A DNA stretch of 64,000 nucleotides from Vulcanimicrobiota bacterium (GCA_013290125.1 JABCYQ010000007.1:1-64000); one strand, 5' to 3'; positions 4,165-48,500 are shown, counted from the first letter of the stretch. A program made the numbers and translations. The notes: generated from the letters alone by a model not told the origin.

Positions 4165-4190
4165 GGGCCGACATGAAGTCGGCCCCTTCA
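4165..4190. repeat. GGGCCGAC palindrome family, single copy (inverse orientation)
   Basis: Arms GGGCCGAC (4165-4172) and GTCGGCCC (4178-4185), loop ATGAA, followed by CTTCA. This is the reverse complement of the copy at 48435-48459 over arms, loop and tail, so it belongs to the dispersed family described at 12259-12322. This copy lies upstream of the aquaporin rather than at a gene end. Confidence 0.88.
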
Positions 4191-6559: not shown

Positions 6560-6624
6560 ACCGCTCGGTTGCCTGTCGGCTTCGGCATAGCGCCACCTCG
6601 ATCCCGAGCCCACGGTCCAAGGTA

Positions 6625-6638
6625 TGCCCGCGCGGGCA
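6625..6638. promoter_or_regulatory. 14-bp GC palindrome before P5C dehydrogenase
   Basis: TGCCCGCGCGGGCA is fully self-complementary and lies 49 bp upstream of the dehydrogenase start, downstream of the regulator gene. It could be an operator or part of a leader hairpin. In GC-rich DNA such palindromes also arise by chance, so this is weak. Confidence 0.22.
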
Positions 6639-6686
6639 CGCGGAAGTATCCTAACAAACAACACAACCGGGAGAAGAAATAAGAAC

Positions 6687-8255
6687 ATGGCAACACTGAT
6701 CGCCGAAATCGCGCCCTTCGCCAACGAGCCGATCCTGACGTTTCGCGACGAAGAATCCAAACGCGCTATGCGCGAGGCACTGGCGAACGCGCGCCGCGCG
6801 CCCGGCGCCGTGTACGACCTCATCATCGGCGGCAAGCGCGTGAAATCACCGAAGCAGTTCGAATCGCGCAATCCGGCCAAACCGTCCGAAGTGGTCGGCA
6901 CCGTGCAATCCGCCACCGTTGAACAAGCACGCGAAGCGGTCGCAGCTGCAGAAAAGGCGTTCGCAACGTGGTCGCGTGTGCCGGCGTCGCAACGCGCCGA
7001 CTTGCTTTTCAAAGCCGCAGCCGAAGTCCGCCGCCGGCGCTACGAATTCGATGCGCTCCTCGTCCTCGAAGTCGGCAAGAGCTGGGGCGAAGCCGACGGC
7101 GACACAGCCGAAGGCATCGATTTCCTTGAATACTACGCGCGCGAGATGCTGCGTTACGACGGCGTGCATCCGGTCACGCCGATTAAAGGCGAGAAAAACG
7201 GCATGCGCTACATCCCGCTCGGCGTCGGCGTGGTCGTGCCGCCCTGGAACTTCGCCTTCGCGATTCTCGTCGGCATGACGGCCGCGGCTATCGTGACGGG
7301 CAACACCGTCGTGCTCAAACCGTCGAGCGACTCGCCCGTCATCGCTGCGAAATTCGTCGAACTGCTCGAGAACGTCGGCATGCCGCCAGGCGTCGTGAAC
7401 TTGGTCACGGGATCCGGCGGTGCTATCGGCGACGAGCTCGTCAAACATCCGCGCGTGCGCTTCATCGCCTTCACCGGTTCCAAGGAGATCGGCCTTCGCG
7501 TCAATCAGCTCGCCGCCGAACCGCGGCCCGGCCAGATCTGGATCAAACGTGTCGTGGCGGAGATGGGCGGCAAAGATTCAATAGTCGTCGCCGCCGACGC
7601 GGATCTCGATGCCGCGGTCGAAGGCGTGGCGCAAGCCGCGTACGGCTATCAAGGGCAGAAATGCTCGGCGTGCTCGCGCGCGATCGTCGAAGCCCCGGTC
7701 TACGACGAATTTCTGCGCAAGCTGGAGGAGCGCGTCAAGACGATCACCGTCGGCGATCCGGCCGAGCCGGAGAATTACATGGGGCCGGTCGTGAACGAGC
7801 GCTCGCTGCAGAAGATCATGTCGTACGTCGAACAGGGCAAGAAAGAAGGCCGGCTCGTCAGCGGCGGGCAGCGTGCTCCCGGCGATGGATGGTTTGCGCA
7901 ACCCACGGTGTTCGCCGACATCCCGCCCGACGGCAAACTGGCGCAAGAAGAGATCTTCGGTCCGGTGCTCGCCGTGATCAAGGCGAAAGACTACGATCAG
8001 GCCATCGAGATCGCGAACAACACGGAATTCGGTTTGACGGGAGCGGTCTACTCGCGCGACCCGGCCAAGCTCGATCGCGCGCGCGAAGAATTCCACGTCG
8101 GCAATCTGTATCTGAACCGCAAATGCACGGGCGCCATGGTCGGCGCGCATCCGTTCGGCGGCTTCAACATGTCGGGAACGGATTCAAAAGCGGGTGGGCC
8201 GGACTACTTGCTGCTGTTCATGCAAGCAAAGTCCGTCAGCGAGAAGGTCGGCTAG
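6687..8255 (+). CDS. pruA: L-glutamate gamma-semialdehyde (P5C) dehydrogenase
   Basis: NAD-dependent aldehyde dehydrogenase of 522 aa that converts glutamate-gamma-semialdehyde (from proline or arginine breakdown) to glutamate. The general-base Glu is in AEMGGKD near residue 291 and the catalytic Cys in GQKCSACSRA near residue 325. The N-terminal region matches the RocA/PutA-2 type rather than general ALDH. The start at 6687 follows a GGGAG ribosome site; an upstream in-frame ATG lies in the palindrome and adds no conserved sequence. No proline dehydrogenase gene is nearby. It ends 19 bp from the convergent hypothetical gene. Confidence 0.93.
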   Translation: MATLIAEIAPFANEPILTFRDEESKRAMREALANARRAPGAVYDLIIGGKRVKSPKQFESRNPAKPSEVVGTVQSATVEQAREAVAAAEKAFATWSRVPASQRADLLFKAAAEVRRRRYEFDALLVLEVGKSWGEADGDTAEGIDFLEYYAREMLRYDGVHPVTPIKGEKNGMRYIPLGVGVVVPPWNFAFAILVGMTAAAIVTGNTVVLKPSSDSPVIAAKFVELLENVGMPPGVVNLVTGSGGAIGDELVKHPRVRFIAFTGSKEIGLRVNQLAAEPRPGQIWIKRVVAEMGGKDSIVVAADADLDAAVEGVAQAAYGYQGQKCSACSRAIVEAPVYDEFLRKLEERVKTITVGDPAEPENYMGPVVNERSLQKIMSYVEQGKKEGRLVSGGQRAPGDGWFAQPTVFADIPPDGKLAQEEIFGPVLAVIKAKDYDQAIEIANNTEFGLTGAVYSRDPAKLDRAREEFHVGNLYLNRKCTGAMVGAHPFGGFNMSGTDSKAGGPDYLLLFMQAKSVSEKVG

Positions 8256-8274: not shown

Positions 8275-8616
8275 TTAGTGCCGGCGGAACCAGACGTGGA
8301 GGCCGTTGCACGCGCCGAATGCCACGATCTCTTCTTCGAGACCGCGCAGCCACTCGCGCGACGGAACCGTGCGCTTATCCCATGAAATCGTCACGCCGCT
8401 CAATCCGGCTGTGATCTGTCGCGAAACGGAGACTCCGGCCAGATCGGCCGCGGCGCCGATGAACTGATCGAACGCCGCGCCCATCTCGGGCGGCGTGGCC
8501 ATGGGCCGAGTGAGGACGAAGCGCAGCGGATCGGACGGAGCATTTTTGTCCTGTCTGTTCGTCGAATCGCTCCGAGACGGATTCGGCATCGTCTTCGTAC
8601 TCGCTGACACAGCCAT
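8275..8616 (-). CDS. Conserved-looking hypothetical protein
   Basis: A 113-aa soluble protein without a recognised family. The first 45 residues are low-complexity and polar; the rest is a plausible alpha/beta domain ending in GLHVWFRRH. The start at 8616 is chosen for its AAGGGGAA ribosome site about 9 nt upstream; the longer frame would overlap the methyltransferase gene on the other strand. It is divergent from that operon by 118 bp. Confidence 0.55.
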   Translation of the reverse strand: MAVSASTKTMPNPSRSDSTNRQDKNAPSDPLRFVLTRPMATPPEMGAAFDQFIGAAADLAGVSVSRQITAGLSGVTISWDKRTVPSREWLRGLEEEIVAFGACNGLHVWFRRH

Positions 8617-8734
8617 GCGATGTTCCCCTTGGTGCTTGTTATTACGCGGTTCAGTCCGTTCATGATACCCAACTGAAAAGCAAATGGGAAGCGGGCGGGT
8701 CAAGAAGTGACGAGCGTCGTACCGCTTTAGTCCA

Positions 8735-9415
8735 ATGCAGCGCACCATCCAAGCAGAACTCATGGATGACGAGGCGAGCGGCACGGTCGCCGACCTGAGC
8801 GAAAATCTGCGCGACCTTGCTCGCATCAACGCATGGTTCGGCGGGACGCACGCGATTCTGCGCGCTATCGACGCGCTGTCCGTGATGCCGCGCACCATTT
8901 TGGATGTCGGTTGCGGCGGCGCCGATGTGCCGCGTGCCGTTATCGAGCATCTGTCCGGCCGCGGCTTGCCGGCGACTTGCGTGGCGCTCGACCGCTCTGC
9001 ACGTATCCTCTCTTACGCCTCCGCCGTGGTGCGCGATAACGACGCGATTTCGACAGTGCAAGGCGACGCGACCGCGCTGCCGTTCGAAGCCGGCAGCTTC
9101 GACCTCGTGACCTGCAGCCTAGCGCTGCATCATTTGACGCCAGCAGACGCGGTGCAAGCGTTGCGTGAGATGGCGCGCGTCGGCGCGAACGTCATCGTCA
9201 GCGACCTTCGGCGGAGCCGCGCAGCGTGGCTTGCAGCGCATGCCTTGCTTCCGCTGATCACCCGCAATCGATTCACCTTGCATGACGGTCCGATATCGGT
9301 CCAGCGCGCGTACACACCGGACGAAGTCCGGTCGATGGCGGAGCAGGCCGGCTGGACACGCATCGAAGTTCGCGCGGCTTTCGGCGCGCGGTTGTTGCTC
9401 ACCGGTGGCAGATGA
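8735..9415 (+). CDS. Class I SAM-dependent methyltransferase
   Basis: A 226-aa methyltransferase with the Rossmann SAM site ILDVGCGGADVP near residues 55-66, an acidic loop (CVALDRS) and the post-II/III segment DLVTCSLALHHLT. The family is of the methyltransf_11/25 kind found with type III polyketide synthases and isoprenoid quinone genes. It is the first of four genes with 4-bp stop/start overlaps (ATGA, ATGA, GTGA), so all four should be translated together. No substrate can be assigned. An O- or C-methylation of an aromatic or polyketide intermediate is inferred from the neighbours. Confidence 0.82.
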   Translation: MQRTIQAELMDDEASGTVADLSENLRDLARINAWFGGTHAILRAIDALSVMPRTILDVGCGGADVPRAVIEHLSGRGLPATCVALDRSARILSYASAVVRDNDAISTVQGDATALPFEAGSFDLVTCSLALHHLTPADAVQALREMARVGANVIVSDLRRSRAAWLAAHALLPLITRNRFTLHDGPISVQRAYTPDEVRSMAEQAGWTRIEVRAAFGARLLLTGGR

Positions 9416-10566
9416 CCGCCGACGTCGTGGTCGTCGGCGCGGGGCCAGCGGGTTCGTCGATCGCGCTTCGACTCTGCCGCGCCGGCGTCGGCGTCGTATT
9501 GCTCGAACGCAAGCGCTTTCCGCGCGACAAAGTCTGCGGCGAATACTTGAGTCCCGGCGCGCTCGCCGCGCTTGCCGAATTGGGCGTCGATCACCGCGTC
9601 GCTTCGCTCGGTCATCCGATCCGGCGCGTCGCGCTCTCCGCGTTCGGACACGGACCTGTGATCATGTCTCTTCCCGCCGGCGGCGCGCTCGCGCTGTCGC
9701 GCGCGGATCTCGATTCTTTGTTGCGCGATGCCGCTATCGCAGCCGGCGCCGAGCCGGTTGATGGCATTTTCCTTGATCTTCGCGCTGAGGGCGCGGGTTG
9801 GCGCGTCTCCTATCGCGATTCCTCGGGAGCCGCACGGTTCTGCACGGCGCGAGCCGTCGTGGGAGCCGACGGCGCGTGGTCGAGCGTCGCTCGAAGCGCC
9901 GGACTGGCGGGGGACACGCGCCGGGCAGGCCGATGGGCCGTCGGTGGACACGTTCGTTCAAGCGAGGCGCAAGGCGACACGCTGGAGATGTTCGTCGGCA
10001 CGGGCGGCTACTATGCGCGCAACCCGCTCGGCGGCGAACACTGCAACTCGATGCTCGTCATGCCGAAGCCGGTCGCGGACGACGCGCGCGCCGATGCGAT
10101 CGTGGACGAAGTCACGGGCGGCAGATATCGCTTCGAAGGCGCGTCGCTCGTCAAGCGAGTCGCGGTCGGCCCGCTGCGCTACGCGCCGGATTCAGTCGCC
10201 GTACCGGGCGTTGCGCTTGCAGGCGATGCCGCCGGCATGCTCGATCCGTTCGTCGGGCAAGGCGTCGCCGTCGCGCTGGAAAGTTCCGCGTCGTGCGCCG
10301 CCGGCGTCATCGCGCATCTCGCCGGGGCGCCTGCGCGTGAGACGGTTGGTGCGATCCGCGACGCACGCCGCCGCATCGAGCGGCCCCGCCGTCTGCTTGC
10401 GGGCGCCGTAGACCTCATCGTGCGCACGCCGCTCTTGCGTGCGCTCGCGCTGCGCCGTGCGCGGCGCGATGTCGCAGCAGCCGAGATGGTGCTCGCCGCC
10501 GTCGCGGGCGCAGTACCAAACGCGCAGACGATGTCGCCGGTCGCTCTCGTACGGCTGCTCGCATGA
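9412..10566 (+). CDS. Geranylgeranyl-reductase-family FAD oxidoreductase
   Basis: A 384-aa flavoprotein of the GGR/halogenase-like superfamily. FAD motif GAGPAGSS lies near residue 9, the family hallmark CGEYLSPG near residue 44, and the second FAD motif GDAAGMLDPFVGQGV near residue 268. Members saturate isoprenoid chains or oxidise/hydroxylate aromatic polyketides. It overlaps the methyltransferase stop and the next start by ATGA. In this operon a redox tailoring step is the likely role. Confidence 0.85.
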   Translation: MTADVVVVGAGPAGSSIALRLCRAGVGVVLLERKRFPRDKVCGEYLSPGALAALAELGVDHRVASLGHPIRRVALSAFGHGPVIMSLPAGGALALSRADLDSLLRDAAIAAGAEPVDGIFLDLRAEGAGWRVSYRDSSGAARFCTARAVVGADGAWSSVARSAGLAGDTRRAGRWAVGGHVRSSEAQGDTLEMFVGTGGYYARNPLGGEHCNSMLVMPKPVADDARADAIVDEVTGGRYRFEGASLVKRVAVGPLRYAPDSVAVPGVALAGDAAGMLDPFVGQGVAVALESSASCAAGVIAHLAGAPARETVGAIRDARRRIERPRRLLAGAVDLIVRTPLLRALALRRARRDVAAAEMVLAAVAGAVPNAQTMSPVALVRLLA

Positions 10567-11012
10567 TGCGCACAGCATCATCGGTCGATATCGCCGCCGC
10601 GCCGCGCGCGATCTACGATATGGTCGAGGACATCGGCCGGTGGCCAAAGCTTTTGCCGCACTATCGTTTTGTCGAAGTGCTCCGCGAGGCGCCGGACGGG
10701 CGCATTGCGGTCATGGGCGCGCGCCGCGGAAGCATACCCGTGCGATGGACTGCCGCTGAACGATTGTTCCCAAATGTGCCGCGGATCGAGTTCACGCACG
10801 TGGCAGGCTGGACTAAGGGCATGGAAGTCGCGTGGCGCTTTGAGGCGGTCGCTGCCGGAACGAGAGTCACCATCGATCACGAGCTTGATTTTCGCCGCGT
10901 CCCCCTTATCGGGGATTGGATCGCGCGCAAAGTCATAGGCGATTTTTTCATTCATTCGATCGCGAACGCGACGCTCGCGCGCTTTAAACAACTGATGGAG
11001 AGTGCAGCGTGA
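10563..11012 (+). CDS. SRPBCC (START-like) protein, polyketide cyclase/dehydrase type
   Basis: A 149-aa helix-grip-fold protein. The N-terminal strand with AAAPRAIYDMVEDIGRWP and the following ...LPHYRFVEV... are typical of the polyketide cyclase/aromatase and CoQ-binding COQ10 families, which hold a hydrophobic ligand in a cavity. Between a flavoprotein and a ketosynthase, a role in folding, cyclising or carrying a polyketide or lipid intermediate is the natural inference. It begins ATGATG overlapping the previous stop and ends in a GTGA overlap with the ketosynthase. Confidence 0.78.
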   Translation: MMRTASSVDIAAAPRAIYDMVEDIGRWPKLLPHYRFVEVLREAPDGRIAVMGARRGSIPVRWTAAERLFPNVPRIEFTHVAGWTKGMEVAWRFEAVAAGTRVTIDHELDFRRVPLIGDWIARKVIGDFFIHSIANATLARFKQLMESAA

Positions 11013-12238
11013 GCCGCGTATTTATCACCGGCATCGGCGCGATCACGCCGATCGGCATCGGCCGCGAGGGCCTCTGGGAAGGCGCGACCAGCGGACGGCG
11101 GGGCGTCAGAGCGATCGACCGCTTCGACACGTCGGAGATGCGCTCCAAGGTCGCCGGTCAAGTGGACGATTTCGACGCGACCGCCTTTTTAGACCGCAAG
11201 CAAGCGCAGCGCACCGAACGTTTCAGCCAATTCGCGATCTCGGCGGCGCGCATGGCGTTCGACGACGCCGGCATGCGCCTGAGCGGCGACCACGATGATA
11301 TAGGCGCGTGGATCGGAACCGCTCTCGGCGGCGTCGTGTTCGCCGAATCGCAGTACAAGAACTACGCGGAGCACGGACTGCGCGGCGTTCACCCAACGCT
11401 GGCGCTGAACGTGTTCGGTGCGTCATCGTGCTGCAACGTCGCGATCCATTTCGGACTGCACGGGCCGACGCAATCCAACTCGAACTCGTGCGCCGCGGGC
11501 GCGGTGGCGATCGGCGACGCCTTCCGCGCGGTGCGCGACGGCGTGTGCCGCGCAGCGCTCGCCGGCGGCGTCGAAGCGCCGCTCGCTCCGCTCACGTTCG
11601 GCGCATTTGACATCATCAAGTCCATGTCGACGCGTAATGCAGATCCGGCGAGCGCTAGCCGGCCGTTCGACGCGGGGCGCGATGGCTTTGTCATGTCCGA
11701 AGCCGCGAGCATGTTGCTGCTCGAGCGCGAAGAAGATGTGATCGCGCGCGGCGCGACACCTTATGCGGAGATCGCCGGCTACGCGTTGACCAACGACGGA
11801 GAACATATGACCGCGCCGCGCGACGATGGGCGCGAGGCGGCGAAGGCTATGTTGCGAGCGCTCGCCGAAGCGCGCGTATCGCCCGACGAAGTGGATCACG
11901 TCAACGCGCACGGATCGGCGACGCCGCTCAACGATTCGACCGAGAGTCGCGCGATCCGCGCGGTGCTCGGCGCGGCCGCCGACCGCATCATCGTTTCGGG
12001 AACCAAAGGAATGACCGGGCACGCGCTCGGCGCGACGGGCGCTATCGAGGCCGCGCTCTGCGCGATGTGCATAAAGGAGAGCACGGTCGTGCCGACCATC
12101 AACTTGGAGATGCCCGGACCGGATTGCGACCTGCGCTATTCGCCGGAAGTCGCGACACCGCTCAAACAGAATGTCGTCTTGTCGAATAGCTTCGGATTCG
12201 GTGGGCTGAACGCAGCACTCGTCTTCAAGTCGGCCTAA
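11009..12238 (+). CDS. Beta-ketoacyl-ACP synthase, FabF/KAS II type
   Basis: A 409-aa condensing enzyme that extends an acyl chain with a malonyl unit. The catalytic Cys161 is in NSNSCAAGA, with His301 (VNAHGSATPL), Lys333 and His338 (GTKGMTGHALGATGA), so the C-H-H triad with Lys is intact. It lies in the four-gene coupled operon and not with acpP, fabD or fabG, which suggests a dedicated pathway rather than housekeeping fatty acid synthesis. GTG start with GGAG upstream. A palindrome pair follows 20 bp after the stop. Confidence 0.87.
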   Translation: MSRVFITGIGAITPIGIGREGLWEGATSGRRGVRAIDRFDTSEMRSKVAGQVDDFDATAFLDRKQAQRTERFSQFAISAARMAFDDAGMRLSGDHDDIGAWIGTALGGVVFAESQYKNYAEHGLRGVHPTLALNVFGASSCCNVAIHFGLHGPTQSNSNSCAAGAVAIGDAFRAVRDGVCRAALAGGVEAPLAPLTFGAFDIIKSMSTRNADPASASRPFDAGRDGFVMSEAASMLLLEREEDVIARGATPYAEIAGYALTNDGEHMTAPRDDGREAAKAMLRALAEARVSPDEVDHVNAHGSATPLNDSTESRAIRAVLGAAADRIIVSGTKGMTGHALGATGAIEAALCAMCIKESTVVPTINLEMPGPDCDLRYSPEVATPLKQNVVLSNSFGFGGLNAALVFKSA

Positions 12239-12258: not shown

Positions 12259-12322
12259 TGAAGGGGCCGACGTAGTCGGCCCGACCAAACGTTACGTGGG
12301 CCGACTTGCGTCGGCCCCTTCA
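12259..12322. repeat. Facing pair of GGGCCGAC palindromes between convergent genes
   Basis: Two stem-loops. The first has arms 12264-12271 and 12275-12282 and is preceded by TGAAG. The second has arms 12298-12305 and 12310-12317 and is followed by CTTCA. The pair is itself an inverted repeat, because the TGAAGGGGCC at the left is complemented by GGCCCCTTCA at the right. It fills the 85-bp gap between the stops of the ketosynthase and the anti-sigma gene. It may act as a bidirectional terminator or a REP-like element; there is no T-run on either side. Confidence 0.9.
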
Positions 12323-39188: not shown

Positions 39189-39228
39189 GGGCCGATATAA
39201 AATCGGCCCCTTCAGTCGGCCCCTTCAG
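39189..39228. repeat. GGGCCGAT palindrome plus a partial copy
   Basis: Arms GGGCCGAT (39189-39196) and ATCGGCCC (39202-39209), loop ATAAA, followed by CTTCA, then a second partial GTCGGCCCCTTCAG (39215-39228). It lies between the stops of citrate synthase and the small zinc-ribbon gene, with an A-run (39179-39185) on its left that would give a U-run in the minus-strand transcript. Confidence 0.87.
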
Positions 39229-48434: not shown

Positions 48435-48500
48435 GAAGGGGCCGACTTCATGTCGGCCCACGTTATGTTCGCCAGGGCCGACATAAAGCCGGCCCCTTCA
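48435..48500. repeat. Facing pair of GGGCCGAC palindromes
   Basis: First copy: TGAAGG, arms 48439-48446 and 48452-48459, loop TTCAT. Second, inverted: arms 48475-48482 and 48488-48495 (one mismatch), loop ATAAA, then CTTCA. Between the response regulator stop (48415) and the YVTN-propeller gene stop (48520). Layout identical to 12259-12322. Confidence 0.9.

Follow-up and report, generated by a model that had tools for sequence, protein, structure and literature searches.

How a Vulcanimicrobiota bacterium might make a polyketide- or lipid-like product from four tightly coupled genes that include a ketosynthase (KS) but no type III polyketide synthase (T3PKS) is the question raised by the locus described here. 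The locus lies in a stretch of 64,000 nucleotides, referred to below as the window, from an Eremiobacterota/Vulcanimicrobiota (WPS-2) genome of 2.9 Mb that is 95% complete. ORF calls in the window reproduce the four plus-strand genes of the first-pass annotation (Table 1), whose three junctions are 4-bp ATGA/GTGA overlaps. Pfam and NCBIfam matches are PRK06202-like for the methyltransferase (MT), FAD_binding_3 and GG-red-SF for the FAD-dependent enzyme, Polyketide_cyc for the probable aromatase/cyclase (ARO/CYC) and ketoacyl-synt N and C for the KS. The analysis bears out the initial view of a polyketide- or lipid-like operon without a type III synthase, and no T3PKS (PF00195) occurs in the whole 95%-complete host assembly. 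The operon itself contains no ketoreductase, dehydratase or enoyl reductase gene, nor a dedicated acyl carrier protein (ACP) or thioesterase gene, and neither a chain-length factor (CLF) nor a CLF-like KS is found in the operon or elsewhere in the host genome. The single PF00550 ACP of the host is located in a fab-like neighbourhood near fabH, fabD and fabG (neighbours annotated by eye). Just two ketoacyl synthases score above a trivial level in this genome, both with the active-site Cys, namely the operon KS and a FabF next to rnc and smc, as is typical of fabF genes. The dehydrogenase gene upstream is a conserved neighbour that we do not count as a member of the proposed pathway.

Table 1. 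Positions in the window of the four operon genes, the KS active-site codons and the upstream neighbour.
Feature	Position	Strand	Remarks
L-glutamate gamma-semialdehyde dehydrogenase, upstream neighbour	6624..8255	+	syntenic in most of family f1
Class I SAM-dependent methyltransferase (MT), PRK06202/UbiE-like	8735..9415	+	226 aa; homologous to type III PKS-operon MTs
FAD-dependent oxidoreductase, GG-reductase superfamily	9412..10566	+	384 aa; fold nearest flavin halogenases/monooxygenases
SRPBCC/helix-grip protein, probable polyketide aromatase/cyclase (ARO/CYC)	10563..11012	+	149 aa
FabF-like ketosynthase (KS)	11009..12238	+	409 aa, GTG start; clade apart from housekeeping FabF
KS active-site codon Cys161	11489..11491	+	
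KS active-site codon His301	11909-11911	+	
KS active-site codon His338	12020-12022	+	

A promoter/terminator scan yielded nothing exceeding the shuffled background. Between the dehydrogenase and the MT a small minus-strand ORF (8275-8898), without Pfam match, diverges from the operon, and ORFs of similar size occupy this position in relatives. A partly palindromic repeat, GAAGGGGCCGAC, has 11 matches in the window with at most one mismatch, against 0.52 expected, at 4178, 12260-12321, 20532, 36248, 36636, 39202-39226, 48435-48499 and 60038; the copies at 12260-12321, just 3' of the KS gene, form two inverted arms, and the element looks like a REP-type interspersed repeat.

The catalytic centre of the KS is intact, as first described: Cys161, His301 and His338, and also Lys333, align with C163, H303, H340 and K335 of E. 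coli FabF and show no variation across 25 aligned sequences. The original label of FabF-type stands in that fabF is the nearest model, but the score of 460 bits is below the curated cut-off of 493.75 and the KS falls outside the housekeeping clade. The phylogeny comprised 62 sequences including 39 KSs of the four-gene module, housekeeping FabFs, and KSalpha and CLF sequences of Streptomyces/Kitasatospora, with no aryl polyene KS among them. All 39 module KSs form one clade (support 98/96, present in 100% of bootstrap trees) apart from the FabFs of the same genomes, and this clade holds same-operon KSs from Chloroflexota, Thermomicrobiota, ANGP1 and an Actinomycetota MAG. A KS that is merely a duplicate of the housekeeping enzyme was rejected by tree and synteny, the host FabF being encoded elsewhere. 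A third KS family (~35% identity) is separate in the tree and occurs in some f2/f3 genomes (loci L147, L148, L150 and L166), the L166 member lying near genes of shikimate-pathway-like appearance. On a Streptomyces plasmid (L161, 4358-18256) a FabF adjoins genes for an SCP2-domain protein, a FAD oxidoreductase, ACPs and a P450, with a T3PKS and methyltransferase pair close by on the opposite strand.

The pocket positions equivalent to FabF 107, 108, 133 and 193 read A/L/L/P in module KSs, G/I/F/A in FabF and A/T-L/M-L/P in KSalpha; by this alignment all four differ from FabF, and most of the four resemble KSalpha. The KSalpha/CLF sequences are placed on the module side of the tree rather than the FabF side with 92/93 support, on long branches that make their position weak. 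Both features, together with membership of the third gene product in the WhiE/TcmN/BexL family, would suit a minimal type II aromatic polyketide (pigment) pathway, in which a KS homodimer would build a longer poly-beta-keto chain, the ARO/CYC would close the first ring of a polycycle, and the FAD enzyme and MT would tailor it as in spore pigments, without a CLF. Such a pathway appears distinctly unlikely, since the operon has no CLF, second cyclase or ACP gene and the genome no CLF-like KS elsewhere, the MT is of the T3PKS-operon kind, and the KSalpha/CLF rows are long branches of weak placement. Type II aromatic systems such as act, tcm and whiE share with the operon a Cys-His-His(-Lys) KS, a single-domain ARO/CYC of TcmN/WhiE/ZhuI fold, a FAD enzyme and an MT, whereas the operon lacks their KSalpha-CLF pair and dedicated ACP and does not conserve the key Arg of the ARO/CYC.

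That third protein had been labelled START/cyclase-like, and profile and predicted fold now point to the cyclase side, refined to a likeness to aromatic-polyketide aromatase/cyclases. The best PDB matches of its family profile are BexL, WhiE-type, TcmN and ZhuI proteins, with E down to 8.6e-21, and the SRPBCC profile is nearer to ARO/CYCs than to lipid carriers. The AlphaFold model (pLDDT 88.6) matches first TTHA0849, a protein of unknown function, and then TcmN, WhiE and ZhuI. Trp27, Tyr34 and Trp62 align with residues of known ARO/CYCs, and His33, Tyr34, Arg35, His79 and His106 are invariant in the operon family. The position of TcmN R69, an Arg critical in known ARO/CYCs (PMC12664062), is occupied by Glu/Gln in this family, and TcmN Ser67 is replaced by Ala (read off the alignment). 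Because this Arg is not conserved, catalysis must differ from that of known ARO/CYCs, or the protein only binds. On profile and modelled fold, the third gene product is probably a polyketide aromatase/cyclase.

The FAD enzyme had been described as geranylgeranyl-reductase-like, which holds at the level of superfamily: GG-red-SF is the nearest model, at 123.9 bits against a curated cut-off of 158.8. By profile and fold, however, it lies closer to flavin-dependent halogenases, a Cytophaga flavoprotein and aromatic or squalene monooxygenases (hydroxylases) than to proven geranylgeranyl reductases. Hydroxylation is favoured over isoprenoid reduction as its likely reaction. A gene for an 80-81 aa 4Fe-4S ferredoxin lies directly upstream of the MT at seven f2 loci (L046, L049, L052-L054, L057 and L059), where an ACP had been considered for the 80-aa gene and was rejected; a ferredoxin here would suit a reductase more than a hydroxylase and leaves room for reduction. 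It also bears on a reading as a membrane-lipid or fatty-acid modification operon, in which a second FabF would make a special acyl chain, the flavoprotein would saturate or oxidise an isoprenoid or acyl chain, the SRPBCC protein would carry lipid and the MT would cap the product. The GG-reductase superfamily match, the fold match of the SRPBCC protein to TTHA0849 and the fact that FabF is the nearest solved structure to the KS by sequence are all consistent with such an operon. We regard it as rather unlikely in view of the missing reductive genes, the closer affinity of the SRPBCC profile to ARO/CYCs than to lipid carriers, and KS pocket residues that differ from FabF.

The locus is connected to a known pathway through the MT, whose relatives on annotated replicons sit in T3PKS operons. 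In Deinococcus radiodurans the gene order is T3PKS-MT-FAD and in Paludisphaera borealis MT-FAD-T3PKS with 4-bp overlaps, while in Sphingobium the FAD and T3PKS genes diverge from the MT; on an unannotated Paenibacillus replicon a T3PKS homologue lies upstream of the MT/FAD relatives. A profile of four T3PKS-linked MTs finds the operon MT in the host genome with 146.8 bits, the next best match reaching 32.7. The corresponding T3PKS-linked FAD profile gives 133.2 bits for a paralogue on C2 and 116.4 for the operon FAD enzyme, in second place. Models of the UbiE family reach 54 bits on the MT against a cut-off of 158, which argues against a role in quinone biosynthesis or modification by a UbiE-like MT, a UbiH-like flavoprotein and a COQ10-like START protein. 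Distant UbiE and UbiH matches, and the fold that COQ10-type proteins share with the SRPBCC/START protein, fit a quinone function, but the KS would have no role in it, many members of the class lack the module, and Vulcanimicrobium uses menaquinone (PMC9758169); we consider it highly improbable.

Operons of the gene order MT, oxidoreductase, T3PKS (hidABC, planctomycetes) are experimentally tied to long-chain alkylresorcinols (PMC10896814), and their MT performs C- or O-methylation (PMC10896814; PMC8086630). The present operon resembles hidABC and its planctomycete counterparts (HidA MT, HidB FAD oxidoreductase, HidC T3PKS) in the leading order MT-FAD and, as in Paludisphaera, in overlapping genes, the likeness running through the relatives above to which its MT and FAD enzyme are homologous. 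It differs in having no T3PKS and in carrying the ARO/CYC and the FabF-like KS in the position of the synthase. The missing ACP gene is normal for T3PKS operons of MT-FAD-synthase order. Phenolic lipid operons of the srsABC type combine a synthase, an MT and a flavoprotein. The tailoring logic of srsABC/bpsAB-type systems is shared; the synthase family is unrelated. The DarA/DarB dialkylresorcinol pathway likewise forms a resorcinol with a non-type-III ketosynthase and a cyclase/aromatase; DarB, a FabH-like enzyme, couples two acyl chains head to head, and the operon KS is set apart from it by being FabF-like.

The arrangement of the module is retained well beyond the window. Among Candidatus Eremiobacterota/Vulcanimicrobiota (WPS-2) MAGs, fetched by name, and in other phyla, the order MT-FAD-ARO/CYC-KS is found in most f1 and many f2 genomes, with overlapping genes at 24/24 MT-FAD, 24/27 FAD-ARO/CYC and 22/26 ARO/CYC-KS junctions measured. 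This conservation of order and overlap across f1, f2 and other phyla indicates that the operon did not arise by chance. The pattern that the first-pass annotation had set against its own reading, a KS inside housekeeping FabF with its three neighbours not conserved, is not what was found, because the KS lies outside that clade and the other genes are kept alongside. The MT is missing in 4/13 f1 genomes and has not been relocated within those four (best match 60 bits); its step would thus be optional. The module genes are split in f3, where MT-FAD and ARO/CYC-KS are ~20 kb apart on one contig of G039. A scan with the ARO/CYC profile returned 40 loci. Four-gene operons among them come from MAGs assigned to Chloroflexota, ANGP1, Bacillota and Actinomycetota, and an MT-ARO/CYC-KS version comes from Thermomicrobiales. 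These assignments are unreliable: two loci with a Proteobacteria label (L067, L069) correspond to Eremiobacterota genomes of the present set, and the Bacillota-labelled ones group with ANGP1.

With a module counted wherever a KS scored about 390 bits or more, and with one genome of split KS and one recognised by its FAD gene added, 51 of 117 genomes of the class carry the module and 57 a T3PKS: 45 the module only (G014 among them), 51 the T3PKS only, 6 both and 15 neither. Many of the 15 are incomplete. Strict exclusion of module and PF00195 is rejected by the six genomes with both. By genus the figures are 22 module only, 15 T3PKS only, 7 both and 4 neither, and the complementarity has Fisher p values of 6e-13 when genomes are counted, 3e-4 for genera and 0.02 for the genera of f2. 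The T3PKS-only label needs just 5 changes on the FabF tree, which implies few independent switches, and one large clade accounts for most of the complementarity. The distribution is thus suggestive and falls short of proof. A search for the same MT/FAD pair beside the T3PKS genes of sister genomes did not find it. At the sister loci examined (L119, L122, L130 and L131), the T3PKS gene is followed by an overlapping gene for a ~166-aa ICMT-like membrane protein, a pair resembling bpsAB; G059, where a GGR-like gene adjoins the T3PKS, is the exception.

Taken together, we give about an even chance to an aromatic-lipid pathway built like the hidABC-type alkylresorcinol operons, in which a co-encoded FabF-like KS and aromatase/cyclase have taken over from the T3PKS. 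The FAS acyl carrier protein of the cell would load a long-chain acyl group onto Cys161 of the KS, and His301 and His338 would decarboxylate malonyl-ACP through approximately three condensations with no reduction. The ARO/CYC would then fold and aromatise the short poly-beta-keto chain, giving a ring like that of an alkyl-resorcinol or alkyl-phenol, which the FAD enzyme may oxidise and the MT, optionally, methylate. The computations establish which genes are present, their conservation and homologies, the lack of a T3PKS, the distinct KS clade and its catalytic residues. We infer the use of the FAS ACP, the number of condensations, the chain length, the ring type, the order of tailoring and the product, which may be an alkylquinone, a pigment or a lipid. 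The non-conserved TcmN Arg, the higher-scoring FAD paralogue, the f2 ferredoxin and the lack of a dedicated ACP or thioesterase are weak points of this replacement pathway. The pairing of T3PKS in the class with an isoprenylcysteine-methyltransferase-like protein, and not with the MT/FAD pair, also counts against it. The wider proposition holds that ring formation in an alkylresorcinol-like lipid pathway passed from a T3PKS to a CLF-free, ACP-dependent KS with an ARO/CYC, and that this version is widespread in Eremiobacterota, Chloroflexota, ANGP1 and relatives. It is advanced more tentatively, as a possibility somewhat short of even.

All type II aromatic PKSs known to us use a CLF. They are treated as KS-CLF systems in the literature (PMC10132072; PMC12664062), and no description of a KS and ARO/CYC replacing a T3PKS, or of type II systems lacking a CLF, was found in the open literature. 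If the replacement is real, two unrelated chemistries, CoA/type III on one side and ACP/FabF plus cyclase on the other, would serve one lipid pathway, and the module would represent the smallest FabF-lineage aromatic PKS core known to us, with no chain-length factor. The published lipids of the cultivated Vulcanimicrobium alpinum include seven that are unidentified (PMC9758169). Hardly any natural products are known from the phyla that carry the module, and genome-mining rules built on a CLF or a T3PKS would overlook such a replacement.
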